From contig CM055095.1 of assembly GCA_029204225.1 (NCBI GenBank), forward strand, positions 15,406,049 to 15,470,048: a stretch of DNA of 64,000 nucleotides, read 5' to 3'. Below the pieces are notes generated by a model. The model did not search any database, had not been told where the DNA came from, and was given only the letters and a program-made list of their open reading frames with translations. The position numbers and the translations under genes are program-made. Every line of letters begins with the position of its first letter. The first letter of the stretch is position 1. Source of the stretch: Diphasiastrum complanatum (lineage: Eukaryota > Streptophyta > Lycopodiopsida > Lycopodiales > Lycopodiaceae). Of the stretch, positions 41,848-64,000 are shown piece after piece.

Positions 41848-42910
41848 TTGTATATTCTCCTCGACCTATCTATCATATCAATCATTGTGGACTAACTTCA
41901 AAGTGACAACTTGCACAGTCTTGTATACCCTTTCGGTCTAAAGTTTTCCATGCATTTGCATCATTGCTTGTAGAGCATGTGCTACTCGTCAATGGCATGC
42001 CTAAGGACCTTGGATGTGGAGTCTTCTTGTAGCATAATTTGAGGAGATTTATCCCATGAAATCCATAATCCATCTCAAGTTTTTGAAAAAAATGACACAT
42101 TAGAATTAAAATGCAAATATGAAAGCTCAATAATTGAGATTTTTTGGAACTGTGATATATATTATTCATAAAATAAATGAACACTTCAAATGCCATATTT
42201 TCTCTTAAACTTGAACGGAAGTGGTCTACTCTAGTCCCCAGATTAGGTAATAATTGAACTGGGCTTTTAAAAAATTTTGTGCATAACTTTAGAATTGTTT
42301 TCAACACTTAGGCGTGCATGTGTAGTGATTTGATGTAAAAACAAACGTGCTTATTTTAGATGGAATTTTTTTTTTATATAACCAGATTGACGAGAAAATG
42401 GCCGAAAAAGAATGCCATTTTAAAAACCTTAGTGGACTTTTTTGCTACTATTTTTTGTGTAGATGCATTTATGCAACAAGTTTATAGTGTTTTTGTTTTG
42501 TCATTTTTACATAGACATACACATGTACTAAATTGTTATGATTATTAATTATAAAGGATGCCTTTAGCTTTGTTGATTCAAACAATGCATTTTAGCACTC
42601 GACATACGAACATTTAATTGACTGTATCTATTCTAGTAAAACTTCAAATGGGATTGTTTTTCGATGACATCATGTTATGGTTATATAGGATTTTTTTAGA
42701 GTATATAGTTGTAAAATGTTCATTGAAAGACATGGGATTACACAATTGAAAATATCAAAGTTTGACCAATGACCATGGATGTTTTGACATATCATATCTT
42801 CATTAGAGAAATTTAGAGCTCGAAGAGGGCCTTTGAATTTTTTTTTTTTTAATATTTTTTTTCTTATTTTTGTTGCCATGTTGACCAATTGAAACCTTGA
42901 AATCGGGGTT
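41848..42910. other. STR12 3' flank, no gene seen
   Basis: AT-rich. A possible poly(A) signal aataaa lies at 42172-42177, about 325 bp after the stop. No other feature is supported. Confidence 0.35.
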
Positions 42911-42923: not shown

Positions 42924-43281
42924 GATTTTTTAAATATAAATAAAATAAAAACTTTTAAAATATATTGTTGTTTCGTCAAGCAGCATGCAGAAATGCTATT
43001 GGTTGATGAGGCTTGCCCTTCCAGCTCATCACTGCTCGAAGAGACCAAAAAATATTGAAAATGAATATGACAGATGGTTGAGATGAGAAAATCGATGTAC
43101 CATTAATGTATATGTATTGTCAAATCATGGTTAACAGGGTTAACCAGAGTTAATTTGTCAAGCCAAATAAATCAGTGTTTCAAATTTTTGCCAACACATT
43201 TTCTCAGATTCATGGCTTTTTGTTTACGCAAATTTTCAGATTCATAGTTCATTGTTTCAGATTTTTGCATGCAAATTACGA

Positions 43282-44602
43282 ATGGTGCCATCAAGGAAGC
43301 CGTGCTCTTCAATTGACTCTGTGCTTCTATTCAATGAGACAAATGATAATGGATTATGAGTGCCAAGAAAATATTCAAAAAACTCTTGGGTTTTGATGCA
43401 TCCATCATCAAGAGGAACATTTCGAAAAAGGAAAAGGTCAAAACTATCATTTTGATCTTCAGAACATCATCAGGAGAAAAATCTATTTCTGAAATTCTAG
43501 TCCAACATGTATATATGCATTCAGAGATAAATGTGTAGGGATTCAACCGTCAGGATCACCAAAAAAGCAACTGTGAGTATTGATATTTTTGATACTTTGA
43601 TTTTTGTCATTCATAAATATTTAATAGTAAATTTGCCAATCTGATCATTTTTCTCTTGTAGATTTATATCCATCCAACATAAATGAATGGGAGCCGAGTA
43701 GATCTTTTGCAGGTGTGTTAGATGTTATTCACTGATATTGGACAACTGCAATGTCGAGGTAAAACTGCAAAAGATCTAGCTGATAGTGAGATCTTTTTTT
43801 ATGAATCAATGTACATTCCTGATACAATTTTTTTTTTTGGACAAATAGTACCAATTCCATCACCTAGTTTTGAAAGTGATAAATGGATTGCACCAGATAC
43901 TACAGTTTCAAAATCATTTCGTTGCAAGATATATAATGATGTAAAAAATTCATTAAAAATGAGCACGGGATAAAAAATAGTCAGATTGAGTTGGTTTATT
44001 TCCTTGAATATATTTGTGGATTTCTTTTCAAGTGTCAATGACACAAAATCCCAACGATGTTTGTATGCAAAAATTTATCAGATAGTTTATTATCTGAACT
44101 TATGGATGAAGGCTGGGACAAAAGATCAGATGGAATGCAAAATTAAATTGTCTTCCATGTGCTTCCGTTATTAAATTGAAAAACAAATGTTGAGCTTATG
44201 CTTTCATTATCAAAGATGGAAAAATAAAAAAAAAAGACTCGATTAAGATTTGGAAGCCAGTGGACATTCAAAACGAAAAAATATTGAAATTATATACAAT
44301 GATGTCGTTTTGACGTGTGTTGAGGTGGAAGAAGATTGGAGTCTAAACTACATCAGGCAGGAACTATTGCTCCTACAAGATGATGTACTTTTAGACTTCA
44401 GATTTATTTTCAATGGTAAACTCGTAAGTAACTGTAAACACTCGATCTTTTATGAATAGTTTCAATCAAAACTTTCTAATACAATTTCTGTACTAATTGT
44501 AACTAACTTTGTATTAGTTTTATGCAGGTACGTAAAAGACATGAGCTCGAGATCAAATGTAGAGATATTGGCGAAACAATCCAACTTATGAAAGAACATT
44601 GA
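43282..44602 (+). pseudogene. Gene A: copy of the novel A/B/C family
   Basis: Exons by comparison with gene C: 43282-43572, 43662-44423, 44528-44602, with the same intron positions. Exon 1 starts MVPSRK and shares NSWVLMHPSSRGTF and ISEILVQHVYMHSEI with B and C, but it has a TGA in place of the usual Trp and a frameshifting deletion before ILIFRTSSG. Exon 2 keeps QCRGKTAKDLADSEIFFYES, then LSWFISLNIFVDFFSS, then EKQMLSLCFHYQRWK, with more frameshifts. The last part (NGKL, then exon 3 VRKRHELEIKCRDIGETIQ) is intact. A poly(A) signal lies at 44717-44722. Function unknown. It converges with D1, whose stop is 244 bp away. Confidence 0.7.
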
Positions 44603-44845: not shown

Positions 44846-45900
44846 TTAGGAACTGATAAGAGAACAACTCCTTCTATAATTTCGCCCTCTACTATTTCGG
44901 AAAGGGCCCCAATGCCCTTTTAAGACAAGAGGACTCTTTGCTATAATATTGCCTTCCTCTGTATCAGGAAGGATTTTTATTCCTTTTTGATCATATAAAA
45001 TAAGATCTGCATCCTGAGCAACCTGAAAGGCTGTTAAGGCAGGAGCAGGTTCCTTTTGAGGGCCCTCGATCCCAAGTGCAACGCTTACATCGTACTGGGC
45101 ATAGGTTCTGATCAACTCTTGCCGAAATCTATATACATCATCAGGAGTACACGGCTCAAGAGTGAACTGTCATCACAAAACACGAGAATAAGCAAATTAC
45201 AAACAATGATAGTAAAAAAATATGAATCAGAATGAAAGGAACTACAAATGAACAAAATATTACCTTTTCAATATCTACATCCACTTGTAAATTATACCAC
45301 TCAAAAAATAGCTTTGTATTGTACATGACGAACCATGCACAACTAAAAGCGTCATTTTGCTGTACACACTGCATATATAAAACGAAAATTAGTAATATTA
45401 TGATAGAAATTTTATTTATGCTATGACGATACATTTGAATTAAAAAAGAAATACATGCATATCAGAGATAGATTGAATATACCTTGAGAGATCTAATGGT
45501 TATTTCTCCAATTGAAGTTGTCGTTGTCGGTATTTCCTGAACGACATCATGAAGTAGAGAATCAAATTTTCTATGTGTATTTGCAGCTGAGTTTAATTTT
45601 ACACATAAAAAATTTGATACTCCCTCCTTACTCATCTTTACAGAAAGAATGTTCAGGTTCCAATGCCGACTGCAACAACCAAAATACAAATATCGATAAA
45701 TCCATATTTCTGAAAGAGTTTCTTACTTATTAAAGACTGCATTCGATAAAATAGATAGCCTTCTCAAAATTGGCTTCTTTCGTTTTTATCGCTCCCATGA
45801 AAAATGGACTAACAACAAAAACTGTACCATGGAAATCGAAACTAATACTATTTAGCAAAAAAGATACTCCGGCTTCTACTCATTACAAGAGTTCTCAAAC
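44846..45900 (-). pseudogene. D1: Ulp1/C48-like peptidase, N-terminally truncated
   Basis: Exons on the - strand: 45669-45483, 45368-45264, 45166-44846. The first holds the catalytic-His block RHWNLNIL and FLCVKLNSAANTH, the second the Gln/Cys block CVQQNDAFSCAWF, the third a family-specific tail (FTLEPCTPDDVYRFRQELI) that is longer than in D3. All three join in frame with good splice sites. Upstream only a decayed stretch (VFVVSPFFMGAIKTKEANFE near 45810) remains; the H3-like and N-terminal parts are lost. By family this would be a cysteine peptidase removing SUMO or a related modifier; the Asp of the triad is Asn here, as in D2-D4. Confidence 0.7.
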
Positions 45901-45984
45901 TTAGAAGGGCCGTTTGTTACGAGTTTTTTTTTTCCCTCGCTGTTTATGTCCATGTGGCCCAATTGGTTCTTGACATAGTGACTT

Positions 45985-45997: not shown

Positions 45998-46216
45998 CTC
46001 GCTTGACCCGGAAAACACAATTCATGTTTGGGCAAATTTGAATTTCCGGTCCGGTAGATTGGAAGCATACTATTGGTTGGCGTGCGCGACGACTGGTTGA
46101 CTAAATTGCTTGGGTTAACCTCAAGTTAAAATTATCTTGGGACTCACAAATAGGTTTGGCGCCTATTATACTCTGGACTCTCATATTGACAAGTTCAAAC
46201 GTGAACTCTTCAAGCT

Positions 46217-47575
46217 ATGGCGATGAGAAGAAGACCGAGATCCTTGATATGCTCTGCAATTTTTTATAATGAGAGGGAAGACAATGGCACATGGATTGCT
46301 CGTGAATATCATAAGGCTTCTTGGGTACTGATGCATCCATCGGCGAGAGGGGCTTTTCGCCAAAAGAAAAAGGCCAAGTATACATATAGATCTTATTGGA
46401 AAGGGCGGATTATTGATTTCAAAGTTTCTTCAGGAGGACAAACCATTTCAGAGGTGCTTATTCAACATGTTTATATGCATTCAGAACTTAATGTGGAGGC
46501 TGTAAATCCACATGATTTTTGAAAGTGTAATTGTAAGTATCTTAATTTTTTGGTTTGCTTGTCATTTTTAAAACGTAATCGTATATATGAATCGGAGCTT
46601 ATTATGATTTTATATTGTAGATCTATATCCTTCAAATATACATGAATGAGAACCTGTGGCATCTCTGTCAGATATTATAGATGTCATCCATTCAGAAATT
46701 GGCAAATTGCAATACAGAGGACGAACGACAAAAGAACTTGCAGATTCAGGAATATTTTTTTATGATGCTATGTATATTCCAGACATAAATGGAGGAATGG
46801 AAAAACTAGAGTGTATACCTCTACCTAATTTTCAAGATAATGTGTGGTGGATTGCAGTCAACGACAATATAATAAAATGTTTTTGTTCCAAGCTATATAA
46901 TGATGTACAAAAGTCACTCAATACTAGTACTGGATCAAGAAATGTGCACTTAAGCTGGTTTGTTCCAATGTCATTGTTTGTCAGCTAAACATGGAGGTGC
47001 ATCGAACTTCCACATTGTTTGTTTGCAAAAATCTATCAGATGATTTTTTATTCAAATTCATGGACAAAGGTTGGGATATAAGATCCACTGCAGATATTTC
47101 TTGTAGAATCAAACATTCATCCATATCATTTAGATACAGTATAGAGAAGCAAATGCTTAGTATGGCGTTTCATTATCAGAGATGGAAAGAACAGAATGGT
47201 ACTTGGGCCCCATTAGATCAAGATCTAGACAACATTGGACACACTGATCGTATATGCATTGATATCATGGCAAATGGGGAGTTACTTACCAATATTGAGG
47301 TTGAGCAGGACTGGACCTTATTCTACATTAGAACGGAACTGATACTTTTACAACAAGATATCCCCGAATATTTCAGCTTCATATTGGATGGAAAATTGGT
47401 ATGTGAAATCTATGAATTTGTATATTAATTTGTATTCATTATTTTTTTTTGTCAATATTTGGATCACTAACTGTAATTTGATTAACGTATGTTTGTGCAG
47501 ATATGTAAAAGACATGAAGAGAAAATCAAATGCAAAGATTTAGGCGGAATTGTTCAGATAATAGAGCAATCATGA
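46217..47575 (+). pseudogene. Gene B: copy of the novel A/B/C family
   Basis: Exons 46217-46532, 46621-47398, 47501-47575, with GT donors and AG acceptors. Exon 1 begins MAMRRRPRSLIC (basic start) and includes WVLMHPSARGAFRQKKKAK, YRSYWKGRIIDFK, ISEVLIQHVYMHSELNV. There is a TGA at 46520 near the exon end and another where C has Trp (IHE*EPV). Exon 2 runs SDIIDVIHSEIGKLQYRGRT to LSWFVPMSLFVS, then a stop and frameshift at about 46986, then resumes TSTLFVCKNLSDDFLFKFMD and EKQMLSMAFHYQRWK. The C-terminal 80 residues (RICIDIMANGELLTNIEVEQ, SFILDGKL, exon 3 ICKRHEEKIKCKDLGG) are intact. It converges with D2. Confidence 0.7.
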
Positions 47576-47753: not shown

Positions 47754-50243
47754 TTACAGCTCAAAGTAACATGGATTATCTCCACCTTGCACTAGTGTCA
47801 GCTGTGGACTTGATTGGCCTCCCGTTTCTGCAGCTGGACTGGGTGTTGCATGAGATAATAAGTTCACCAACATCTGTTGACGAAACTCATATATCTCATT
47901 CATTGTAAATGCTCGACATTTATACTGCAAATCGAAAAGAACCGAGTCAATTGACCTATCAAAAACCAAATCGAAAATAACTTAGTTAGGAAATTCACTA
48001 GTCTATTTACCTTTCGCATATCTGGAACCCCGGATTGCATGATGTACCACTCTAAGAAGTCATGTATATTGCGGATGGAGAACCATCCACAGCTATGTCC
48101 ATCATCGTGCTGAGCTGACTTCAATCAGAAAATGTATAATAAATTAGTTGTGCACTCTGAAAAAAGTAAATCATATTACCTATCAGATACTAGATGAGAA
48201 ATACTTACTTCTGCATCAACAATCTCCAGGTGGCTATTTACAGTGGCCCCATCCGGCCTTGGCAAAAATGGCAACATTTTGCTGTACATCACGTCCATTT
48301 CGGCATGGGTAGACTTTAAGGAGTTCATCTTTAAACAGATGAGATTAATGATCCCATCTGAATCTTCCCTAAGGGAGATTATATGCACACTCCAATGCTT
48401 ACTACAAACAAGAGATAATTAGTTAAACTGAAGGAATTACAAAAGTTATTAAAAATATGTGACTTGAATATATTCTATGTAATCACTTACTTTTGGCAAT
48501 ATGGAATAATAAAGACTTTGGTCTCCGAGGTTGTATGGAGAAGATACTTTGCTGCCTTAGTTGGACTATGAAGGATGTGTGCAAAAAAGGACAACACAAC
48601 TTCAATGTCCTTAGTATCATCACATTTACATCTATTTACAAAATAGATCAAACCAGCCTCCACAACTGGATCTGATATATCTACTGTCTTCTCCTTCAAG
48701 GCATCACAAAAGTCTTTATTTATGTGATTTACATAATTAATTGAACATAGACAAAAAGAAAATTGACCTCCTAGCTTATCAATTTCTTTGGCAACATACT
48801 CATCAAAAACTATATACCTCTCAAAATCCAAAAATGAATCTTTCGGATCAACTAGAAATCTTACACAAAGATCCTTATAAAAATCATCTACTAAAGTTAT
48901 ATCTAGATCCGATATTATTTTATCTAAAGTAGAGGTCATATCCTCGTTATTGTGGGATGAAATGGAGGGAATGGAAGAGGAATTACTTGAATAGCTAGGG
49001 GTGGCAGGAGGAGAGAACGACATTGCAGACTGGTGTGATGGTCCAACCAAAGGACGAGATATATGAGGGGGGGGATGGTGATTAGCTGACTACGACCCTT
49101 TGCCTGGCAGGCCTGGTGGGCTTGGTCTACTTTCTTCTTCTTCGTTGAGGAACAAGACCTCTCTCTGTAGGTGGTGGCCTAGAGGTGAAGCCACTCTTAA
49201 AAACTTGATCGTATGTACTCCTCAGTCTCATGACAAGATGCATGTCCTGAGACATGAGGGTAACTCTCTTTTTAATATTTACCTGTGCAAATGCCTCCTT
49301 TATCATCTTAAACATTGTTGCATATGCTTCCCTACTGATGTTAGAAAAGTCACATGCCCCCTGAAGCAATGTAATGTCTAATATTTTTCCAACCTCATCC
49401 ATAATGCTATCAGTATCTGAAGCCTTAATCTTTTTCATTTTGTTATTATTTAACATTGATTTCATAGATTTAGAAGTCAAGATAGAGCCTAGTGAGTTTC
49501 CAATTCAAATCTCATTGGCCAAATGGTCTTCAACAACCAATGCTGATCTGCATTGCAAACATAATATTCATGAAAATGTCAGTAGAAATTAGGACACTCA
49601 TAGTATTCACAGTAGTATATAATAAGCAAATCAACAGAAAGTTGAAATGAATAAATAACAAAATTAGTGATTATGAATGAATCAAAAAGTCCAAGCAATA
49701 TTCAATACCAAATAAGCTATAACTTACTTGAATGTATAGATTCGTCTTTTTCTATGACCTCCTCTGGATGATAGATCACATATATCCTTATTTACCAGTC
49801 TTTTCCTCTTGTTGCTTCGGACCTTTCTGTTGAGCACATCCATATCTTTAACAAGAGACAAATATGAGATACGCATGGATTGAAATGCAGTTTTTATCTC
49901 ATCATTACTAGTTGTATAATGATGCAAAGAAGATTTCAACCTTTGGATCTCCTTCTTGAGCATCTCATTTTCATCCAAACAAGTTTTCATCTTTGTAGAT
50001 TTTTCTTTGCACTCCTTTGATATTTTCCTTGATTCTTCTTCCAAATAATGTATTCTTTGCATTGAATGTGCATTCCCATAGAGCATCAAATTCTCACAGT
50101 AACCCAAAAGGCCATATTTACCATGACACATATAGATTATTAACTGACTCAACGAATGAAAATCTGGATGTTGCAATGAACATGGATCAATAGGATACAA
50201 TGTTCTTGATGACCATAAATCTACATGCTTTAGCTTTTCCTCC
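47754..50243 (-). pseudogene. D2: coiled coil + H3-like fold + Ulp1/C48-like peptidase
   Basis: Exons on the - strand: 50243-49728, 49547 to about 49127, about 49077-48491, 48401-48209, 48118-48011, 47924-47754; the later joins are in frame. The first exon encodes CHGKYGLLGYCEN, a coiled coil (about 50090-49880) and two basic clusters (SNKRKRL, HRKRR). The second, after a TGA, carries an H3-like end (FSNISREAYATMFKMIKEAF, KRVTLMSQDMHLVMRLRST) and closes ERGLVPQRRRRK-TAG. The peptidase part has FIIPYC, KHWSVHIIS, ICLKMNSLKSTH, and AQHDDGHSCGWF with His at the position six before Cys. Lesions: TGA near 49507, TAG and a frame change near 49100-49130. Exons upstream of 50243 may exist. Confidence 0.65.
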
Positions 50244-51067
50244 CTGTATCAGACCATATCAGAAGTTGACAATTTGGGTTGCTTTGAATTTCTTGTCCTG
50301 AGCGGAGCATATTCTGGTGACAGATTCACATGAAGATAACAAAGCTTTGTCATCAGTACAGTAGTATAGTAACAAACAACACAATGACAATAACAAAGCT
50401 GGAGATGGCAGTAACGACTCTGTTGGAGATAGAGATGGCGCTAAACACTTGTTTTTGACCCTAGAGATAGAGATGGCGTAGGCTTTGTTTCAGAAATGTT
50501 ACTCCTAATTCAAATTTTTGAGTGTTCCCAACTATTGGGAGGGAATATTTCAGCATTTTAAAAAATTATATTTCAACTATGGTTAAGCACTAGTGAAGTT
50601 TGATGTGATTAAACTAAGGTGCATTCATTTACATGGAAAGTAGTGCGGGCAGATGCGTAAAGAAGTTAGAAAATGATATTATAATTACTTTATAGTTATT
50701 TTTCTCTCTCTTACATGGCATTTCTTATAAGGCTCTCTTTGGGCCCATATTTTCTCTAATGGTTGGCAAGTTGCTTAAAATCAATGGCTTAATCTTTTTA
50801 ATTGATATATGTATATATGAAGAACATGTATGTGAATGAATTTGATGACATTTGTGATAGTTAGTGAGAAGTGAATTTTAAAAGGAGTGATTGAAATGTA
50901 CACTTGCATTTTGTATCATTATACTATTAACAAAAATGAATCAATTAGAACTTTTTCCTTGAATAGAACATAAATATTTAGGCTTGTTTGAAGTTCAAAA
51001 TAGAAGTTTTTGTTTAGTTTTATGTATAGATTTTTGTGACTATCTTAAAGGAGTTGTTTTCAATCTC
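50244..51067. other. No gene recognised
   Basis: AT-rich flank of D2. The word gatagagatggcg occurs twice near 50430 and 50468. The D2 promoter or first exon should be here but I could not place it. Confidence 0.3.
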
Positions 51068-51290: not shown

Positions 51291-51550
51291 TCATTAGAGG
51301 AGTTCCAAGGCCCAAAAGGGTTGGATGCCACATAAGAGAGAAAACTGTTCGATTTTAAAACTCGGACCAAGTTTTTGGTCTGCCCGCACAACTCCGATGA
51401 CTTGACCTCACTAGTAATGTGTGTAGTTTATGGTTTTGTGGTTTAAGCTAATATTGTTTTGTTATTATAGGTCTAAGTTTTAAATATACTTGATCGAGTA
51501 ATACTGTTCAATTCTCTTAACATAGTCCATGATTTTGTGTTTCAAACAGG

Positions 51551-51990
51551 TTTTAAAAGAAGATTATGACATTCTATTTTGGATTTTTAGTAAAACAGAT
51601 TATCCAGAGATAATCAAGAATCATATGAGCGGCACACCACTCAATGTTCCTGGAATAGGTAATTTTAAGGTGGAATGGCATTTGGCTGGAGACCGGAAGT
51701 TGTTGAAGTGCATGTTCAACATCTCACATGGAGCAAATTCAAAACATCCATGCCTCTATTGCATGAAAACTACATAAGACATATCGAAGAGCATGAGAGT
51801 TTCAAGGGATATAGAAGATTCGACTTGGAAACCAGTACTACTGATTCTGCTTAAAATGTCCACATTTGTACACTACATGGAGGTTAGAATTATCGAAAAA
51901 TTGATATACCTTCATATTTGGTTTGCCTGGAATACTACCAGAGTCATTAGCCAAAAAAACATTAGAGGAGTTCTCAATATCAAAAAGGCC
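51551..51990 (+). mobile_element. Transposase-like fragment related to gene F
   Basis: After a good acceptor (AAACAG) the frame reads VLKEDYDILFWIFSKTD, then FKVEWHLAGDRKLLKCMFNI, then SHGANSKHPCLYCMKTT, a stop, then WKPVLLILLKMSTFVHYMEV and RIIEKLIYLHIWFAWNT. The same blocks, better spread out, occur in gene F. The GD...HGA..KHPC.YC arrangement resembles zinc-binding segments in some eukaryotic DNA transposases, but I cannot name the superfamily. Confidence 0.5.
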
Positions 51991-52060
51991 TTTTGTAAAG
52001 ATACTTTAAATTTTTTTTCTTTAGTTTTGATTCTTTAATCAAAATGCACAGATTTGAAAT

Positions 52061-52073: not shown

Positions 52074-52408
52074 TTCAAATTAACTAAAAAATAAAAATGC
52101 AATATAGAAAACTTTGAAATTTGTGTCCGGGCAGCATGGACATATCCCATTGGTTTCTTCTTCCTGCCCGACACGTGCTAATCTGCCCGACGTCAATACC
52201 TCAAGTTAAATTTACTTGACTATGCTGGTTAGTATAATGAAATTTTCTAACTATACTTGTTACAGTTATAGAAATATAGTATGTACAGTTACATAAAATA
52301 TGGTATGCGCAGTAACTGTGACTATGTTGGCATTCACATTAGATTAAATGTGATACGAAAAATTATCATATCAGAGAGATTTTTGGCGCCCAAGCTTTGA
52401 AAATAGCA

Positions 52409-53781
52409 ATGGCAAGGAGACCCAGATCTACAATCGATTCTGTGATTCTTTACAATGAGAAAGATGAAGCTGATAATTGGAAGCCAACAAAATATACGAA
52501 GAACTCATGGGTATTGCTGCATCCATCATCAAAGGGCAATTTTTGACAAAAGAAAAGAGCAAAAATGACTTACAAATCTTATTGGAAAGCAAAAATTTTG
52601 GAGTTTAAGACTACCCTGGGAGGTCAATCGATATCAGAAGTCTTAGTGCAACATGTATATATGCATTCAGAAATCAAAGTACATAATATCAATCCTCATG
52701 ATCATAAAAAATGTAATTGTAAGTATATCAAAACATATACACTCTACAACAATCATAGGTGATTTCCTTTATTGATGCTCTTCAGATTATGATGTAAATG
52801 CCTCAACATTGTTTTTTTCTTTCAGATTTATATCCATCATGCATAAGTGAATGGGAGCCCGCACAATCACTTGCAGGAATATTAGACGTGATTCACTCTG
52901 ATGTTGGAAAGCTGCAATACAGAGGAAGAAGTCCAAAGGAACTTGCAGATTGTGGTATCTATTTTTATGAATCTTTATATACGACACAAACAGATGGAGT
53001 TTTTGGCAAGCTCGAAGCAATTCCTTTGCCTAGTTTTCAAAGTGATGAGTGGCCTACTCCTGACAACATTGTTTCTGAATCCTTGAGATGCAAGCTACTC
53101 ATTGATATTAGAAATGCTATGAAGATAAGCACAGGCTCAAAAATTATTCACCTAAGTTGGTTTATCTCATTGCATATATTTGTTGATTTTTTCTCGAGTG
53201 CTAGTGTTCGTAGGACACCAACTTTATTTGTTTGCAAGGATTTATCAGATGAGACTTTTTCAGATCTCATGGATCAAGGCTGGGATAGTAAAACAAATAA
53301 TGACATAGATTGCAGGATCAAAAAGTCCTCAATGATCTTTCGTTATCATATCGAAAAGCAAATGCTCAGTCTCACATGTAGCTACCAGAGATACAAGAAA
53401 ATTGAAGGTACATGGCTACCACTGGATCAAGACTTTGAACTAAATGGTTACACAAACCGAATGGAGATAAGCATTATCTACAATGAGGAATATTTGACTA
53501 TGGTTGAGGTAGGAGAGCATTGGAAGCTTGATTTTATCAAAACAGAGCTCATGCTATTACAAACCAATCTACCAACATATTTCAGATTTATCATCAACGG
53601 AAGACTCGTAAGTATTTTATGTTTATTTCCATTTCAAAATAGAACAAAATAATAGAAAATGTCATCATTTACAATTGCACATTCACTAATATTTGCCATG
53701 TCACAGATGCGAAAAAGACAGGAGCTGATAACGTGCTACAAAGATCTACCTACAACAATCACCATTGTGGGAGAACAATAG
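52409..53781 (+). pseudogene. Gene C: best-preserved copy of the novel A/B/C family, one nonsense codon
   Basis: Exons 52409-52718, 52826-53607, 53707-53781 give 389 codons in frame, interrupted only by TGA at 52544-52546 (codon 46; B has CGC, Arg, here). A poly(A) signal AATAAA is at 53828-53833. Residues 1-12 are basic (MARRPRSTIDS). About 50-95 (YKSYWKAKILEFKTTLGG, VLVQHVYMHSEIKV) resembles a small chromatin-type beta-barrel, but this is only a guess. The middle holds KLQYRGRSPKELADCGIYFY, LSWFISLHIFVDFFSS, TLFVCKDLSDETFSDLMDQG. The last 80 residues (MEISIIYNEEYLTMVEV, YFRFIINGRL, then MRKRQELITCYKDLPTTITI) alternate strands around one helix and could be a ubiquitin-like fold. I do not recognise the family. 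It converges with D3, 195 bp away. Confidence 0.75.
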
Positions 53782-53976: not shown

Positions 53977-55602
53977 TTAATTTAGTATAACTACATCATC
54001 CTTTGCACCATCATCAATAATGGGAGGTTGAAGCCTTGCCCTAGCTAGTATACTCAAGAAAATTTCTTGTCTAAATCTGTACACCTGGCTTGATGTGTAC
54101 TCAAGAAGTGTAAACTGCAAAATAGAATATTCATGTATTGGTAATGGCCAAAAACATCACCATAATAGAAAACTAATCATGATTCCAAAATAAAAATAAA
54201 CAGAATCTATTATCTTAGAAATATCAACATCTTGTTGAAGGTTGAACCACTCTAAAAACAACTTGGCATTGTATAATGTGTACCACCCACAGCTGAATGA
54301 ATCATTTTGCTAGGGTGACTGCAAAATAATTCAGCACACAAGAAATCAATTATGAAACAGAATGAATTGGATTGAAAATATTTCATTAGAATACTGATTT
54401 CAAAATGCTATTAAGAAAGACAGAGTTTACCTCCAAACTGACGATCTGCCAGTCCACGGAATGGGGAACGTCTGTTGGAATATATTTACTTAGATATGGA
54501 AGGCATATATCTACATCCTTATGCGTATTTCTCGCCGAATTCATCTTGACACAAAAACCTTTAATAATATTATTTATAGATCTCTTAATAGAGATCAGGT
54601 TTAAACTCCAGTGGTCACTACAAAATAAGATTGAAATTTCTTTAGCTTCAATTCTGAGAACTATTTCCATTGACAATGCCAATGTTAATGCATAAAACAG
54701 CAAGAAGCATTTAATATATCTTACTTCGTATGATAAGATATGAGCATATACTTTGTTGCTGGTGTGAATCCACTTGTCAGACACTGTGACAATGTGTCAT
54801 TATTCTCCTTGAAGGCCTGAAGCAGAAAGTTACTCAGCACCAGCAACTCATTTGATGAATCTCTTGCAATGTCATATTGCAAGAGTGTAAGCCCGGACTC
54901 TATCACAGGATCATTGATAGGAGCCCATCTGACTTTAATACTAAAATCAACTTCATCTAGTCTAAAGCAAAAAGGAGTACCAATAGTATCTATAGCATCG
55001 GATATGTCTTTCTCAAATTTAAGATAATCATCCGAATCTATATATGTATAAAAATTTGGGGGAGGAGGAGGAGGTGGATGTGTAGTATCTACAACAATTG
55101 AAGGGGTATCCAAAACAAGGTAGCTATATTTACAGCATTATCAACAACAACGTTATCTACAATGGATTCCGGGTTAGGCTTCACAGAATCTGAAGGGTTA
55201 GGCTTCACTTTCTTAGGAGCATGCTTGGGGTTTAGGGTTTAGGGTTTAGGATAAAAAATCCTTGGGCATTATGGTAACCCTCTTGAAATGGATGGCAAGC
55301 AAAAAAGAATCCTCAAAAAAAAGGCTAATGTAATCTTCAGTAGCCTCCTGAAGGCACTGAAGAGCACTAGGTGTGAATCTAACCAGCTGTCCGAGATCAT
55401 TTCTTGTTATGTTTCAGACAGCACGGTAGAATGGAGCTCTTGGGATCAACAAAGCTGTTGATCTCTAATACTTGCGTATCTCAGAGAGCCACCTGCTGCG
55501 GTTGCGCGTTCTAGGTCTAGCGGGTGGTGTGATGGCAACCGCAGGGGATGAGGATGAGCCAGGAGAGAAGAAGTCCCTCCTTGTCTGCTTTCTCCTATCC
55601 AT
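53977..55602 (-). pseudogene. D3: histone H3 - Ulp1/C48-like peptidase fusion
   Basis: The - strand ATG at 55602 starts MDRRKQTRRDFFS, echoing the H3 tail MARTKQTARKS. It continues [57 protein letters not shown] (to about 55260): helices 1-2 and loop 2 of H3. After a telomere-like insert and frameshifts the peptidase begins: 55113-54725 (to YMLISYHTK), 54617-54431 (DHWSLNLISI, FCVKMNSARNTH), 54318-54214 (QNDSFSCGWYTLYNAKLF) and 54114-53977 (tail FTLLEYTSSQVYRFRQEIF). Exon lengths 187 and 105 match D1. Lesions: TAG near 55475, TGA near 55435, frameshifts at 55120-55255, TAG at 54312-54310, and the third donor is AT instead of GT (54213-54212). It shares promoter P1 with gene E. Confidence 0.75.
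55231..55250 (-). repeat. Short telomere-like (TTTAGGG) block
   Basis: Two full TTTAGGG units and a partial third occur on the + strand. They sit exactly where the H3 frame of D3 is lost, before the peptidase part, so they may be repair filler at a break. Confidence 0.7.
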
Positions 55603-56271
55603 GGATGTGTACTATGTGATAGCGGACTTGTGCGTGACGGTTAGGATGACCAGGGAGGGATGATAAAGAACTCGCAGAGGACCGATATGTGCGAGCCGAA
55701 TATCAGAGAGAACGACTAGTTTTGAGGAAAGACGCACAAGTGCGATATGGGGTGACATGTAGGCAGATGTATCAGACCTGTGAACATGGAAGGCAGTAGG
55801 AGGAATTTCGATTGTGAAGGACGCGCACAAGTGCGATATGCAGAGCCTAAAAAAAAGTGAAAAAAATTCATCAAAGTTTGTGATTTTATATCGCGGTTCA
55901 CACGTGCAAAAGAACATCCTGTCACACGTGTGAGAGTTGTACGAACAAATGCAAGAGTGACATGTGTCACCTTGTCACATTACACGTGTGAGATTTGTAC
56001 GATCAAATGTGAGAGCGACATGTGTTGTTGAGCAAATGAATGAACATGCAACACATGTCCAGGTGTCATTTCACACGTGTGCAGGTGTCACCTCACACAT
56101 GCCTGTGCCTGTAGTCCAATTGAAAGTTGACACGTGTCCTAAGTTCGTTGACCACACATGCAAAAATTTAGTATAAATGGCACGAAAACTGATTAATTTT
56201 TTATCTTTTCTGTTCTCAAAATTCGCGGCATATTGCTCTTGTGCGCTCGCATTGCCTTCCGTTTGCCTGCA
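55603..56271. promoter_or_regulatory. P1: bidirectional promoter between D3 (-) and E (+)
   Basis: The core (about 55910-56160) is dense in ACACGTGT, CACATG and related E-box/G-box words, including a tandem repeat of about 59 bp (acacgtgtgagatttgtacg type, near 55922 and 55981). TATA-like boxes face outward on both sides: gatataaaatc on the - strand (about 55885-55895) and agtataaatgg on the + strand (about 56169). Flanking these on both sides are copies of a motif CGCGCACAAGTGC(G/A)ATAT (55731-55750, 55822-55840, and beyond the region 56282-56303 and 56371-56392). Confidence 0.65.
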
Positions 56272-57844
56272 ATGGTACCTACTCGCGCACAAGTGCAATA
56301 TTCGGTATCTGCCTGCCGTACATATCTCTCTTGTGTGTCATTTTGATAGTTAGTTTTGGTTCAGTTCTCCCTCGCGCACAAGTGCAATATTCTTACTGAA
56401 AACCTAGACTATTTCCACAGTCTATTCAGGCCATATCTACATGTTTTCAGGACTGCACAACCAAATTTTGACGTATTTTATGACCATTATGTCAGATTCA
56501 GAGATATACTTAGTAAGCATGTTTTCTCCATAGGTCCACTCCAGTACATGCATTATACTGATCTTGTTCATTTCTTCCCAGCTTTTAGACATAGACTGGA
56601 TAGAATGTTCACCAAATTGTTTGATCTTTTCAAAGCAGTTCAATGTGTCCGTATTGCAACAAGAAATGTCGATTGGTTGAATTTTAGAGTGGTTTCGTAC
56701 TTTTTCTGTTAGTTCAGATCCCAGATGATGATGAAGTTTCTATTGCTGACCGTCCTTTTGCACCATCCTCTGTTCAGTCAGCTATTAAGGATATCAGTCA
56801 CTTCCTTATCGACACTCCTGATAAGGAAAGTGACTTTATTGATGTAAATACTAATGTTCTCCGGGATTCTTTCATTGGCCAAAATACATCTGATGATAAA
56901 TCCAAATCTATGGAGGAGTCAAAATGTCTTTTCAATTTGCCTATATATTATATTAATGACAATGTATATTTTACTACTGCTGATTTATGTAAATTTTTTG
57001 ACTATCGTGAGGACGAGGTTCTATCTTTATTATCCGGCACAATTTCCGAATTCTCCGACTTTGTAGATTTTGAAACAGATGACCTTGTTGTTGGTATTGA
57101 TTTTGATGATGAGGAGGGACTTATGACCGGTGAAGAATGCCTGAATAAGACTTTATCAAATATAGCTAAGAACGGGCGAGGCAGACCATCGGATGAAGAA
57201 TTCACGGCATTTTAATCCCAGATGGGCTTCCCTCGTCCATCATTAATGCATTTCACTAATGATTCCACTTCAGTCGGTGGTCATTATATTGATCATCCTG
57301 ATCTATTTGCTGCTGATGATGAAGAATGTGTAAGTGTTTAATCTTCCTTGCATTTGAATGTTTTCAATCACTGAATGTGTTTTTGCTAACATATTTCCTA
57401 TTGCAGGATGCTCTCATAATAGATGATTTTGCTGCAAGACGAGGTGGTTTCAGACAACATGTATCCTCGTTCCAGAGGGACAGTGGACTGGGCCACTATC
57501 TTAGGCATTTCCTGAAGAATGAGATCTGTATTGCTCATTTCAAGTTGAGCCCAGCCGGGGAGAGTCTTATAATGGCAGTTAGAGCTTTATCATTTTACCT
57601 AGGAGGACATAAATTTGTTAAGATGAATAAGATCATTTTTGTCAAAAGATCTTATGTTTTGAACATTTTAGGCTTTACTGATGGGAATGTTCCTTTAAGG
57701 AGCTCCCATTATTCATTGTATTACACTTATATTGAGCTTAGTAAAAATAAGGATAATGCACATCTATTAGATGCATACGCTAGCAGAGAATTTCTTCATG
57801 ACAATACTGCCATAGAATCTGATACAAGATCTGGTGATGAATAG
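56272..57844 (+). pseudogene. Gene E: unknown protein with AT-hook-like motif
   Basis: Likely exons: an open stretch from about 56356 to 56644 (FHSLFRPYLHVFRTAQPNFD, YMHYTDLVHFFPAFRHRLDR), then 56713-57329, then 57407-57844; both joins keep frame. Exon 2 contains FNLPIYYINDNVYFTTADLC, an acidic stretch, and NGRGRPSDEE, an AT-hook-like GRGRP. A TAA at 57213-57215 interrupts it but the frame continues to the donor at 57330. Exon 3 (146 codons) has FAARRGGFRQHVSSFQRDSG, then HFKLSPAGESLIMAVRALSF, and an acidic end. The start is unsettled: ATG 56272 is followed by an early stop, and the next in-frame ATG is 56548. I do not recognise the family. It shares P1 with D3 and converges with F. Confidence 0.55.
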
Positions 57845-58340
57845 TTGACACTTTGTATTTTGGTATAATACAATCAATACATTTACATTAGGTATTTCTC
57901 ATCTCTTGTTCAATGAATTTGCAAAGCAATTCTGAACATGTCATGATTTGATGACAATGATGATTTTCTACTCATCAATCATCTAATTTCCTCTTCTTGT
58001 ATGAACGCATGCTTTTCTAAACTTGTTATATTGTGTGGCCTTTGTTATATGTCAAATCTGAACTCTGCGGTAGAACCACTGAAACAATTTACAAATGTAG
58101 TTTCGTTTTTCATTGGTTCCTCCATGTTGTGTATTTCGATGAAATGCTGCTCGTGCTTGCCAGTGTGACTTCTCCATCCCTTGTGATGACCATACACTCA
58201 AGCTTCCATATGTATTTGCAAAAAATGTTATATGATCTCTTAGTATGTGCTGCATATGTCAAAATCATAATGTTAGTCTTATGTTTGGATCTAAATATAT
58301 ATATGAAAATTTGAAAGCATTTTGAAAATTTTATACTAAC

Positions 58341-59710
58341 CATGTAATGAGTGATGTGATCTTCTCCCCATGCTTTTGATACTGCATTAACAAACTCGAC
58401 ACAAGTCCTTTGGACAGCTTTCTTATCAATATCGGAGTATTTTTCTTTTCTTAAAATAGCAATCACTATCACGCTTTTTTCATACATCAACTTTTAGTAC
58501 TCTGGTTTTGCCATCTTTCTCGAAGTCCTGAGTGGCAGCAATAATATATGTCCAGACTGAGTGTTGAATATTAGAAGCCTTACCAGTATGATTTGATAGA
58601 AAACAACGTGCTTTTGCTCCTCCTATGCTTGGCTTAGTTGGCATGTTCCCATTCTTTCTTGAAAGCTTTTCATCTTTTCGAATTTTGACATGTCCTCTAT
58701 GGAGTCTTGCTTTTGATAAAACATCTTCTAATCAAGAGATAGCTTCCTTTGCTAATGATGCTGGCTTAGTATTCCAAGCAAAAACTATATGAAGATAAAT
58801 GATCTTTTCTATTAATCTAACTTCTGCATGATGAGTGCAAACATGCACATCTTTTAAGGGGATAGGCAGCACAGGTTTCCAGTTTGGATCTGCATATTCT
58901 CTAGTAATTTCTATACTCCTAGTACATCTTTTGCCATTTTCATGCAGTACAAACAAGGGTGTTTTGATGTAGCACCGTGAGAGACATTATACATACATTT
59001 CAATGTTCTCAAATCACCTGCTAAGTGCCATTCAACATTGAAGTCTCCAACTCCTGGAACATTGAGAAGTTAGTCCTCCATCCATATGGTCCTTGAGAAT
59101 ATCCATGATAATATATCATGATCCTCTTTCAGCACCTGTCCAAAGAATTAATCAGACTTAGTTTACAATGTATTAATACTATTCAATGAATGTAATGTAA
59201 TAATGAGGCTAGTTACCTAAAACGCTGCCAACCACCATATATCATTTTCTGACTAGACACTGAATTTGAAATCTTCTTGGTTCTCTGTTTGTGATAGAGC
59301 ACCATTCATGAAAGTTATACTAACACTCTCCATCTTCTGCTCTTTCACAATTTCTGACTCATCTAACTTAAGTACTATGATTATTTTGCCATTCACCTTT
59401 TCATAGGTTATATCATAGAATGTGACGATGTATCTCAACAGGTAATTTAGATCAACAAATAAATTGTTTGATGAATTATAGAATATCGATCTTCCATCAG
59501 TTTCATATACCTACTCAATATGAAATGGAGTTCGCTATGACGCGAGATGGAAAGAAGTTGCCCCAAAATCAAACAGTCCTCACGTGATGGCGATATTGGT
59601 GACTGACAGGATATCACAGTGACGCGAGGGATACAAGCTCGTACAGACTGTGACCTAGATTTTCTCGTGGTAGCAATATTGCCTAGAACAGGAAGTGTGG
59701 ACACAAACAA
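58341..59710 (-). pseudogene. Gene F: transposase-like protein, degenerate
   Basis: The - strand ATG at 59710 starts MFVSTLPVLGNIATTRKSRS; blocks then follow in shifting frames: YLLRYIVTFYDITYEKVNGK (near 59430), FKFSV then SENDIWWLAAF, an intron from about 59217 to 59136, VLKEDHDILSWIFSRT, NVPGVGDFNVEWHLAGDLRT, LKCMYNVSHGATSKHPCLYC (near 59000), NWKPVLPIPLKDVHVCTHHA and EVRLIEKIIYLHIVFAWNTK (58890-58770), SIGGAKARCFLSNHTGKASN (near 58640), and CVEFVNAVSKAWGEDHITHY (to 58341). At least four stops or frameshifts. The central part is shared with 51551-51990. A DNA-transposon transposase is the best guess from the GD...HPC.YC segment and the repeat distribution; no catalytic triad was established. 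It shares P2 with D4. Confidence 0.5.
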
Positions 59711-60379
59711 GAGCTACGGGGAGTGAAAATCGAAAACTAAGCGATAGTTGTAAACTGATCGAACAACATTTATATAGCTAAAACCAATAAAATCCAAGCC
59801 GTACATGCATTGATCCAACAACGGATCAGATCTCACATGCGTAATGTAATCGTCCACATGTGCTAGTCCACACGTGCAACAATACACGTGAATTTGCCAT
59901 TCGGACATGTGCCCACACGTGCGAGAATGCACGTCAATTTACCATTCGACCCCATGTCCACATGTGCAGTTTTACATGTGCGAGTCCACACGTCATTTTT
60001 TGATTCGGCCACGTGTCGCAAGTGCACACATGTGTGAACTTTTTTTGGCTATATAAGTCCATTCCCCATGATTTTTTAGGTTTTTGTTCAATTTTGGTTT
60101 CTTCCTGGAATGCTACCAGAGTACTTGTAGACCCGATATCGCCATTATGTGAGGACCTCCCCCCCCCTCTGACTCAGCTCCTTTCTCGCGTCATAGTGAT
60201 ATCAGCTCATAGTTTTCACTATCGGCATCACACGAGAGAACCCAATATCGTGTGATGTACCGCTATCTTCGCGTCGTAGAGATATCCATCTGTACCACCC
60301 AATATCGCCATCACGCAAACATGTCTATCATTCATCACCATGGTAACACTCTCTCGTCTGGTAGAGATATCCGACCTCA
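59711..60379. promoter_or_regulatory. P2: bidirectional promoter between F (-) and D4 (+)
   Basis: A CACGTG/ACATGT-rich core (about 59830-60040) is flanked by outward TATA boxes of the same form: gctatataa on the - strand (about 59773-59781) and on the + strand (about 60047-60055). Beyond both boxes lie copies of CTCGCGTCA(C/T)(A/T)GTGATATC: on the + strand at 60185-60205, 60268-60287 and 60351-60372; on the - strand within the start of F (59609-59630 and, shortened, 59535-59546). The layout mirrors P1 although the sequence differs. Confidence 0.65.
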
Positions 60380-62060
60380 ATGGCTCGGATGAAGCAAACC
60401 GCTAGGCTAACTAGCTTTGCTGAGCCAGTCCACTGAACCTGTACGTCCGCAAAGACATGGAAGACCTCGTCGTCCATGGTTGAGGGACATTAGGGGGTTA
60501 CAAAAGAGCACCAAGCTTCCGATCCTGAAAGCAGCCTTGTACTGGGCTGTGAGGGAGGTCACGCAAGATATGACTACTCATCTGCCCTATGCAGTGAGGT
60601 GGAATATCATTGCTTTGGAGGCATTCCATACTGCATACGAGGACTTCCAGAATAAAATGTTTGAGGATTCGATCTTGTGCTCGATACATGCCAAGAGGGT
60701 GACACTGATGCCCAAAGACATGCCATGAGGCTTCGGAACACCTATGACAACATTTTTAAGTCTGGCTTCACACAGAGGCAAGTTCCTCTTGAAAGGGGGC
60801 TTGTCCCATCCCAAAAATAGAGAAAGCAGACACAACCCAAGCGTTCAAAACCCCAGCCTAGGTCTCCCAGCTCTTCACCCTTGCCTCCTCCCATTAAAAA
60901 AGATGTGACAAGTACATCGGCAATTCCATGGGTTGAGAGTCCTCCCGTAACTCCTAGGATCTTGAAATCCAAAGTTCTCCTTCTCAACATGCGGATGATT
61001 TAAATAAATACAATGGTGGACAAGATTGTTTCTGATGTTGATGCAACTGATAAAGAGTTGCATATCAGACTCCCCAATGATCCAAATGACACATTCTTTG
61101 ATTCTGAAAGATACATTGATTTTGATATGTATATAGAAAAAAATAGATGATCTTGGAGGAGAGTTTATGTTTTGTATATATGATATTAATTTTAGAATGC
61201 ATATCAAAGACCCGCATTGTAAGGAGCTAAAGGAGAAGACCTCCCATATCTCCGACATAGTTGCTGAATCTAGGTGTGTATACTATGTACATAAATACAA
61301 ATATACAATCACGAAGGAGATTTTTGTTGTATCTCTATTTTTTGGACATCTGTTGCATAAAGAGAGGAAAGCCAAAAGGCTCTTCAGGCACACAAGCAAG
61401 GAGGCATCAATATTCATCATCCCATACTGTGCAAAGTAAGATATTTTTTTTTTGGAAACTCTTATAGATTTTAGTAATTTATTGCTTCTCATTTGTTGGC
61501 AGCAAACATTGGAGCGTGCACATAATATCTTTGAAAGTGGATTCTGCTGGAAGCTGCACACCTGTGTGCATGACAATGAATTCCTTGAATGCCACCCATT
61601 CCATTGTTAACTCCATGTACAAGAGAATGGTGGGGCTATTGCCAAGCCAGATGGGCTGATTGTAAATATTAACTTAGAGATTGTTGATGAAAAGGTAAAA
61701 GGATCTTTTCACGTTTTTTATTTACATGATGGTATGGAGTTTAAAATTAAACTCACAGACAACAACGGTCCAATCACAAGTCAGGACCCTACCCGGTGGG
61801 AGTTTTGAATTGTATAAAAATATGATCAAAAAGTTCCAAAAAAATCTATGGAAATTGCAGATCCTGTAGCAACCTTCTAAGCCAAATTATCTCCTTCACT
61901 GTTGATGTAGTTGCAACGTATTCAGATTATGTAGAGGACAACGAAATGCATTTCGGCTTTCTACTGTTCCATAAAATGGGTCCTCCTGCAAGGAAACAAA
62001 TGTAACATGATGTGGATTTTTTGGTGTCCAAGTCTCCTGTCCAATCTGAATCTGAATAAG
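60380..62060 (+). pseudogene. D4: histone H3 - Ulp1/C48-like peptidase fusion, truncated
   Basis: ATG at 60380 gives MARMKQTARLTS, the H3 tail start with Arg2, Lys4 and Arg8 kept. After one frameshift comes a full-length H3 fold in one frame: RPRRPWLRDIRGLQKST, AVREVTQDMTTHLPY, ALEAFHTAYED, FEDSILCSIHAKRVTLMPKD (to about 60720). The spacing across loop 1 equals that of canonical H3. After another frameshift: AMRLRNTYDNIFKSGFTQRQ, ending VPSQK-TAG. The peptidase part follows: ERYIDFDMYIEK near 61100, a frameshift in an A-run at 61133-61145, DLGGEFMFCIYDIN, FIIPYCAK (exon end 61436), then 61503-61694 with KHWSVHIISL and VCMTMNSLNATH, which loses frame before its end. The Cys exon expected next is not found; from about 62085 the locus is copia. 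Confidence 0.75.
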
Positions 62061-62084: not shown

Positions 62085-64000
62085 TATTATCGTTATAGCT
62101 CAAAGCATAGTGCTTCGTAGCTTGAATGTACTTTTATACTCTTTGTAGAGTCTTCTAATGTTGTAGTCCTAGATTGGACATGTATTGAGACAGTGTGCTT
62201 ACTACATATGCTAGATGAGGTCATGTGCAGATCATAGAATACATTATAGATCCTATGACAGACTGATAAGGATACCTGCACATTTCTTGCTGATCTGCTT
62301 GAGTTCTGGGGCACATGTCTTTGGACAGCTTTGATCTAGGATCCATAGGTGTGTCTATGGGCTTGCAGTCCACTATGCCATATCTACGTAGTACATTGAT
62401 TAAATAGGACTCTTGGCTTATAGTGATCCTTTTGCTTGCGTGATCTCTATTGATCTCCATACCGAGTAAGTAATGAACTGGGCCTAAATCAGTCATCTCA
62501 AATTCTGATGAAAGCAAAGACTTGTTTTCATGTAGCACCTGATTTGAATTGTTGATAATTAATAAATCATCAACATACAATGCTATAATAACATAGCTTA
62601 CGCTTGAGATACACATTAGAGTCTACGAAGCAAGAAGTGAAATTATGCTACAACAAGAAGTGGTTGATTCTTTCATACCAGGCTCGGGGAGCTTGCTTGA
62701 GGCCATATAGTGCCTTGTGCAATTTACATACCAAATGCTCTTGGCCTTGAAGGACGTAACCTTCTGGTTGATAAATGAATATGTCTTCTTGTATGTATCC
62801 ATGAAGGAACGTTGTTTGGACGTCCATCTAGTGAATGTCTAGACCCTTTACAGTAGCTTATCCAGCAAGGTGCGAATAGATGATGCTTTACCAATGGACT
62901 ACCACTGTACTGAAGGTGTCAGTGTAATCTATTCCATATGCTTGCTCAAATCCTTTACCCACTAAGCGAGCTTTCCATTTGGATACTGATCCATCTGGCT
63001 TAAGCTTTAGCTTGAAGATCCATTTAGAGTCAATATGTTTTATACCTGCAGGAGGATTAACAAGATTTCAGGACTTGTTTTTTATCAAGGAACTATACTT
63101 AGCATCCATTGTAGCCTTCCAGCTATCTACATTTGACGTTGACAATGCTTCTGCAACAGTGGAAGATTCATCATGACTGATAAACGCTTGAGGGATGAAA
63201 TGATTAGGTTGCTGTCGTTGACGTGTAGATCTTCGGACTGTAGGTGCTTGAGTTGATGTTTCTCTTGGGTGAATGACTGTGATAGCTTCATCTTGTGGTT
63301 GAACAGTCATGGGACTAAGCCCATCGATGGTGAATGGAGTTGTTGGGACAAACTCCTGCATTTGAACGTTCGTAGGTTGTTGCCTATCGATGGAAAATGG
63401 AGCTGTTGTGATAGACTCCTGCATTTGCTGCTTCTGCTTGAAATCATGAAACTTGTCTTCAAGGAAGACAACATCACGACTGACTGAGATATGTCCTATG
63501 TCGATATCATAGATACAATATGCCTTGTGTGACGTTGAATAACCGACAAAGATATACTTATAGCTTACTGGGTCTAACTTCTTCCTAAGATCAGACGAAA
63601 TTTGAGCATAGTAGAGACATCCGAATATACGTAAATGTTTCAGACTTGGTTTGTAGTCATAGTAGGCTTCAAAGGGTGTCTTGGAGTCGATTGCGTTCAT
63701 GCTGGAATAATTTTGTAGATAGCAAACTATAAAGATTGCTTCAACCCAAAAGTTCTGGGGTAATTGAGCGTCGACAGTCGCGGATCATGCAGCTTCCAAC
63801 AATGTATGATTCTTTCGCTCACAGCTATGCCATTCTGTTGTGGAGTGTAGCTGGCTGTGAACTGATTGTGCATGCCACATGATGATAGGTAGTCTGCCAT
63901 TTCATTTGATAAGTATTCTCCTCCTGTATCAGACCAAATGGTCTTGATTCTCTAACCAGTTTGGTTCTCAACGAATTGCTTGAACTCCTTGAAGAAATTG
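62085..64000 (-). mobile_element. Ty1/copia pol, partial (continues beyond window)
   Basis: Read on the - strand from 64000: integrase core (FFKEFKQFVENQTG, SDTGGEYLSNEMADYL, TPQQNGIA), a 210-codon intact frame at 63700-63068 (KTPFEAYYDYKPSLKHLRIF, KYIFVGYSTSHKAYCIYDID, RRSTRQRQQPNHFIP), a decayed RT N-terminus, then an intact frame at 62616-62221 with the RT catalytic YVDDLLIINN and YLLGMEINRD, and the RNase H start (PHLAYVVSTLSQYMSN) to about 62085. Stops are frequent outside these frames. It resembles the copia at 8835-10375 (GGEYLSNEM). Its left end abuts D4. Confidence 0.9.

Follow-up and report, generated by a model that had tools for sequence, protein, structure and literature searches.

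The 64,000-nucleotide stretch of Diphasiastrum complanatum DNA considered here (assembly GCA_029204225.1, contig CM055095.1, positions 15,406,049 to 15,470,048 of the forward strand; hereafter the window) contains four regions, D1 to D4, that a comparison of the window with itself identifies as copies of one gene. This gene, which we call gene D, joins a histone H3 domain to a C48 (Ulp1-like) cysteine peptidase domain, and the fusion is almost certainly carried by a mobile element. The parts of the four copies, by position in the window, are as follows.

45000..45722, - strand: D1, limited to the His/Asn, Cys and C-terminal exons of C48, with no H3 part recognized
47757..49267, - strand: D2, H3 alpha-C end (RVTLMSQDMHLVMRLR), linker, and the C48 exons that bear the His, Asn and Cys (Pfam C48; alignment to an unbroken copy)
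49196..50338, - strand: exons for the N-terminal part of transposase gene C, brought next to D2 by an internal deletion (tblastn of gene C homologues; P0001)
53977..55137, - strand: D3, linker end and C48 peptidase exons (Pfam C48 on joined pieces)
55137-54721, ~54628-54425, ~54324-54208 and on to ~53978, - strand: D3, the C48 N-half, His/Asn, Cys and C-terminal exons, respectively
55249..55602, - strand: D3, H3 fold with a short H3-like tail (MDRRKQTRR) and two in-frame stops (Pfam Histone)
60380..60735, + strand: D4, H3 tail (MARMKQTAR) and fold, frameshifted (Pfam Histone)
60735..61700, + strand: D4, linker followed by the C48 N-half (to 61436), an intron, and the His/Asn exon (~61505-61656)

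Profile searches returned significant matches to both domains. As a first-pass annotation of this DNA had proposed, in D3 an H3 fold (Pfam Histone PF00125, E = 8.7e-24, with the in-frame stops entered as X) precedes the peptidase on the same strand (Peptidase_C48 PF02902, E = 2.2e-7, 31.4 bits, pieces joined). The same proposal for D4 holds for the H3 fold (E = 1.3e-15) and for the presence of C48-like exons on the same strand, but the C48 match reaches only E = 0.016 and 15.5 bits, below the 20.7-bit cut-off. A Cys exon was looked for in D4 and not found, and the copy is frameshifted once within the tail and again after MPKDM. The peptidase of D2 is matched at E = 1.7e-6 (28.4 bits) and that of D1 at E = 6.2e-4 (20.1 bits, marginally below the cut-off), both with pieces joined; in D2, a His replaces the Gln located six residues before the Cys. 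When a profile of the four window peptidase parts was compared with PDB sequences, it matched SENP2 (E = 3.1e-5) and Ulp1 (E = 0.046).

D2 had been read as retaining a shrunken H3 end. The alpha-C end is indeed present; the H3 fold was lost not by shrinkage but because an internal deletion joined the N-terminal part of gene C to D2. The stretch ahead of RVTLM is 95% identical over 63 residues to the gene C homologue P0001, which runs on into gene C. The window holds no intact copy of gene D: D3 has stops in H3, D4 is frameshifted, D2 lacks the H3 fold, and D1 lacks the H3 part.

Approximately three plant-type telomere repeats (TTTAGGG) separate the H3 end of D3 from its linker (~55229-55251), and look as if they filled in a repaired break. 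Stop codons in D2 (~49127-49129, K-stop-TKP, where other copies read KQTKP or KLTKP) and in the H3 part of D3 (KY-stop-RS, KYQRS in L062) match, in these individual cases, CAG-to-TAG changes; such stops would fit the methylated-C decay expected of silenced copies. A partner of D2 that is 99% identical lies 0.9 Mb away at positions 16355574-16356170 of the same contig, and the region around D2 may be duplicated.

The family extends well beyond the window. A first look through the window's own assembly (1,744,706,496 bases, 5176 contigs) with the D2 peptidase exon gave 5124 candidates, and the best 150, which were scored, all matched at E = 2.2e-65 or better. We inspected 28 loci representing 25 distinct places, with three loci nested in others and one equivalent to window D2. 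These comprise the eight highest-ranking matches along with 20 larger loci, 19 of which were picked for long open frames, so that the fractions of open copies are biased upward. At eight of the 25 places (L009, L010, L013-L017, L020) the first exon is unbroken, spanning MARTKQTAR or variants thereof, the H3 domain, the linker, and the C48 domain up to the end of its N-half. L009 and L010, which may be alleles, share 99.7% identity across 9.9 kb.

A splice model using fixed patterns was tried on 16 loci. For L017 it produced a complete 518-amino-acid frame with a terminal stop, interrupted by three GT-AG introns of 88, 90, and 86 bp. The encoded protein exceeds the Pfam cut-offs for both Histone (E = 3.4e-20) and C48 (E = 1e-4; 22.7 bits against the curated PF02902 cut-off of 20.7), and a single protein thus bears both domains, as had been suggested. 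The models for L009 (25.0 bits for PF02902) and L010 extend to 462 amino acids without the last exon. Elsewhere, six loci run into a stop, and in seven the patterns located no splice site. Twelve H3-like repeats of the genome were also fetched. Among these, L060 represents another subfamily and has an open 527-amino-acid frame that runs from H3 through the linker and C48 N-half and, across an unspliced intron, into the His/Asn part. In L062 (D3 type), an open frame that enters from a gene C piece leads from the H3 fold into C48, with the tail start out of frame, and L063 corresponds to a D4-type H3 part.

The gene D protein (~518 amino acids) consists of an H3-type histone with a short tail, a full fold and alpha-C, a linker rich in Pro, Ser, and basic residues, and the C48 cysteine peptidase. 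In L014, for example, the first part is MARTKQTARLTTFAPPPRPPLQRVVGSGTRVGRPRRPWLRDIRRLQRTTNLLIPRAPFYRPVRLVTRSLSHDVRWNITALEALHTAYEDFHVKFFEDATLCTVHAKRVTLMPQDMHLVMRLRSTYDQVFKSGF, which precedes the linker and peptidase. The tail start MARTKQTAR is conserved (A in 16/17 copies, R in 13/17, T and K each in 17/17, Q in 16/18, and the following T in 15/18), and the invariance of T4 and K5, as numbered from the Met, means that the N-terminal K4 peptide of H3 is present. At the place of H3 K9, 16 of 18 copies have Leu and K9 is missing, and the remainder of the long H3 tail is absent in the copies read. The best PDB sequence matches of the H3 part are H3 variants (E = 3.2e-17). In the peptidase, the catalytic His and Cys are each found in 19 of 20 copies and the Gln six before the Cys in 17 of 20.

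To compare constraint among regions, we computed the ratio of nonsynonymous to synonymous rates (dN/dS) over pairs of 20 copies, after dropping duplicate or nested loci (L005, L006, L008-L011), the D2-type loci L001 and L002, and window D3 and D4. Because copy pairs are not independent, the values are contrasts between regions rather than exact rates: 0.81 for the tail, 0.23 for the H3 fold (a value aided by a high synonymous rate), 0.72 for the linker, 0.42 for the C48 N-half, and 0.54, 0.35, and 0.42 for the later C48 exons. The contrast stays when only transversions are counted (tail 0.86, H3 fold 0.38, linker 1.07, C48 N-half 0.52). For the seven open copies, the corresponding values are 1.19, 0.24, 0.75, and 0.48 with all changes and, more noisily, 0.81, 0.44, 1.04, and 0.79 with transversions, where the contrast for C48 is weak. 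Amino-acid differences per column are 0.111 in the H3 fold and 0.104 in C48 versus 0.206 in the tail and linker, a disparity equaled in none of 10,000 permutations in either case. These comparisons indicate that purifying selection has very probably acted on the H3 fold and the C48 domain alike.

The fusions in D3 and D4 had been regarded as two independent copies. Instead, the D copies belong to one very large repeat family, and in a tree of 17 H3-fold rows the eight transposon rows group together (branch support 89/84; 87% of 200 bootstrap trees) opposite the host H3 and CENH3 rows. Since four divergent gene D subfamilies form one H3 lineage, a single capture, of either an H3 or a CENH3, followed by long divergence is likely. 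The LIPxAPF and EDS residues of the gene D histone resemble those of plant CENH3. A second dispersed repeat accounts for nine of the 12 fetched loci (L056-L059, L061, L064-L067), most of which share 88-97% identity across 0.5 to 2 kb. Its CENH3-like histone stands alone, with no attached peptidase, and has a long tail rich in Pro, Ser, and Thr (ending ...RRLRRERN); the repeat may be either mobile or composed of host CENH3 copies.

Gene D sits in a high-copy DNA transposon of ~9 kb that is bounded by terminal inverted repeats (TIRs), next to genes C, E, and B. The TIRs and the DDE transposase encoded by gene C bear out the mobile-element origin suspected earlier. The remaining features of these elements in the window are listed below.

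42801..42831, + strand: possible terminal repeat of the B1/D1 element, 21/31 matches (the best of 20 shuffles likewise gives 21)
43250..44600, + strand: gene B1 (self-comparison)
45881..45911, + strand: terminal repeat, 30/31 matches to the right end; start of the B2/D2 element
46205..47572, + strand: gene B2
51292..51322, + strand: terminal repeat, 24/31 matches
51529..51993, + strand: gene C1, transposase fragment (84% to P0004)
51960..51990, + strand: terminal repeat, 26/31 matches to the left end and 25/31 to the right end; the B3/D3/E/C2 element probably starts here
52343..53778, + strand: gene B3, containing a 284-amino-acid open frame (model with a beta-grasp-like C-terminus, low confidence)
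55603..56290, strand not assigned: D3/E intergenic stretch with five ACACGTGTG motifs, as in other elements
56350..57844, + strand: gene E (the 57323-57841 frame shares ~30-50% identity with gene E in other elements)
58034..59600, - strand: gene C2, DDE transposase including the second D and CxxC, HxxxxH, and the WSSQGMEK (Glu) exon

The repeats at 45881 and 51960 stand where the B2/D2 and B3/D3/E/C2 elements should begin. Two other kinds of sequence were noted in the window: long open frames resembling a gypsy-type gag-pol by eye (27769-32574, - strand) and a copia-like fragment (62221-63784, - strand; Pfam SH3_retrovirus, 7.1e-26), which may have severed the D4 element from its B side.

The element was defined from 20 oriented loci of 9.9 kb that were compared with D as bait, in windows that often truncate the left end of the element. 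Besides D (20, as bait), gene B is present in 19 of these loci and genes C and E in 10 each, and the full order C(+), E(-), D(+), B(-) occurs in five (L012, L013, L017, L018, L022). E together with one C piece in L014, and a C piece in L019, lie in the opposite orientation, as if these loci were nested or rearranged. The inverted ends, CATTA...TAATG, are of the 5'-CA...TG-3' type. The right end, ...CCTGTAATG or a variant, was located in 13 copies, and of their flanks just those of L016 and L023 resemble each other. The left end reads CATTAGAGGAGTTACAAACATCAAAAGGGCC, likewise with variants. Complete copies of ~9 kb are given by L018 with L030 and by L017 with L029. In seven end pairs we saw neither a target-site duplication of 2-5 bp directly at the ends nor, by eye, a shared target sequence; in L040/L041, the ACTGT that closes the left flank reappears three bases into the right flank. 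The 0.8-kb interval between E and D is rich in ACACGTG, which four copies contain six to 16 times per 760-800 bases.

Gene C is a DDE transposase, with a predicted fold matching RAG1/Transib. The second D is present in all 41 proteins where the region was located; CxxC follows 20 residues later in 34 and 17 residues later in one, whereas one Cys is lost in five and one protein is too short. The Glu exon was identified in six copies and in the window, and presumably corresponds to that of RAG1, as judged from a RAG1 motif. Gene C thereby has the CMCT (CACTA/EnSpm-Mirage-Chapaev-Transib) pattern D, D, C(2)C, H(3-4)H, E. The transposase family (58034-59600 in the window, L012-L022, and proteins P0001-P0061) is present in many copies in this genome and has a relative in Klebsormidium nitens.

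SUMO participates in heterochromatin silencing. We consider the chances to be about even that the gene D protein acts as a chromatin-tethered deSUMOylase with an anti-silencing role, our preferred reading, in which the enzyme would protect or target the transposon. Given the constraint on its fold, the H3 domain would pair with H4 and place or dock the enzyme on nucleosomes, where a peptidase with these catalytic residues could strip SUMO or a similar modifier from silencing factors or histones. By analogy with Ulp1-bearing Vandal and KIU elements, such deSUMOylation might keep the chromatin of the element open for expression or transposition. With the K9 counterpart missing and the K4 peptide kept, a particle containing this H3 would be unable to acquire the K9 silencing mark yet still able to acquire K4 marks. 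It is rather doubtful that the protein goes as far as replacing H3 on element DNA, forming private nucleosomes without K9 (and probably K27) marks while stripping SUMO from silencing complexes, and so building the element's own anti-silencing chromatin. Several observations weigh against a tethered deSUMOylase. Foremost, the catalytic Asp of C48 is replaced by Asn in 19 of 19 copies, and also in D1-D4; this is the main argument against full activity, and for this reason protease activity is plausible but not assured, whereas retention of the Cys and mostly of the Gln argues against a dead enzyme. In absolute terms the C48 match is also weak, with E values between 1e-4 and 2e-7; 17 of the 25 inspected places have no unbroken first exon, indicating that most inspected copies are decayed; and histone-fold proteins can act without entering nucleosomes.

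Other roles for the fusion fit parts of the same data. RAG2, the partner of RAG1, reads H3K4, and gene D is one of four genes in an element with a RAG1/Transib-like transposase; both of its domains are constrained. The H3 fold could tether a transposition complex to target chromatin while C48 matures or remodels that complex. We hold this to be unlikely, as no link of gene D to the ends or to target sites was found, the seven end pairs showing by eye neither a shared target sequence nor a site duplication. That ARTKQT is largely retained in an otherwise drifting tail would suit a decoy that occupies H3 chaperones, writers, or readers off nucleosomes by mimicking the K4 peptide, with the peptidase acting on those partners, but the constraint covers the whole fold, beyond what a peptide mimic needs, and makes this quite improbable. 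Slimmer still are the prospects of a self-processing system in which C48 cleaves a protein of the element, such as that of gene B. Gene B adjoins D in nearly all loci, and its weak model ends in a beta-beta-alpha-beta-beta arrangement that is beta-grasp-like; however, the mean predicted local distance difference test score of this model is 36.5, and Pfam reveals no ubiquitin-like domain in the pieces scanned. Finally, the breakage of every copy within the window might suggest an assembly join, or a host H3 gene or pseudogene with an unrelated peptidase as its chance neighbor. This is scarcely credible when the same in-frame junction recurs in numerous places and across at least two subfamilies, with constraint on either side, and the unbroken copies rule it out.

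Mobile elements are known to carry enzymes acting on silencing marks. To our knowledge, none has such an enzyme joined to a core histone, and no transposon-borne H3-C48 fusion was found in the literature searched, which left out most subscription papers. If the fusion enters chromatin, it would offer a direct test of whether SUMO at nucleosomes keeps plant transposons silent, and would supply a tool in the form of a naturally occurring deSUMOylase tethered by a histone. The high copy number of a RAG1/Transib-like transposase in this genome, with one from K. nitens among its relatives, is also of interest for how that transposase family evolved.

The nearest parallels come from several groups of elements. 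The KIU (Kaonashi) and Vandal elements are Mutator-like elements without TIRs that have captured a Ulp1 domain tied to escape from silencing (PMC13317346). Elements of these groups that bear Ulp1 lose the silencing of their kin, and the precise function of Ulp1 is unknown according to this review (PMC13317346). The gene D element likewise is a plant DNA transposon whose accessory gene has a Ulp1/C48 domain. Unlike those non-TIR Mutator elements with VANC-type genes, however, it has TIRs, and thus falls outside a group distinguished by lacking them, along with a RAG1/Transib-like transposase and an H3 domain that precedes the peptidase. With the CMCT clade, including RAG1, it shares a DDE transposase with D, D, CxxC, HxxxxH, and E and also CA...TG ends (PMC12730594), but CMCT elements make a target-site duplication of 2-5 bp, which the seven pairs lack directly at their ends, and their accessory genes differ. 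Oomycete Crypton elements with C48 also combine a mobile element with an added Ulp1-like peptidase, but use a tyrosine recombinase, and the available portion of the report mentions no histone (PMC3212892). Fungal DNA transposons bearing TET/JBP, from CMCT and other groups, similarly carry an accessory enzyme that acts on a silencing mark (PMC12730594), although theirs is a dioxygenase acting on DNA rather than a histone-fused peptidase. Core histone H3 and CENH3 share with gene D the histone fold and the ARTKQTAR start, whereas gene D differs from both in its shortened tail, its lack of a K9 counterpart, and the enzyme at its C-terminus.

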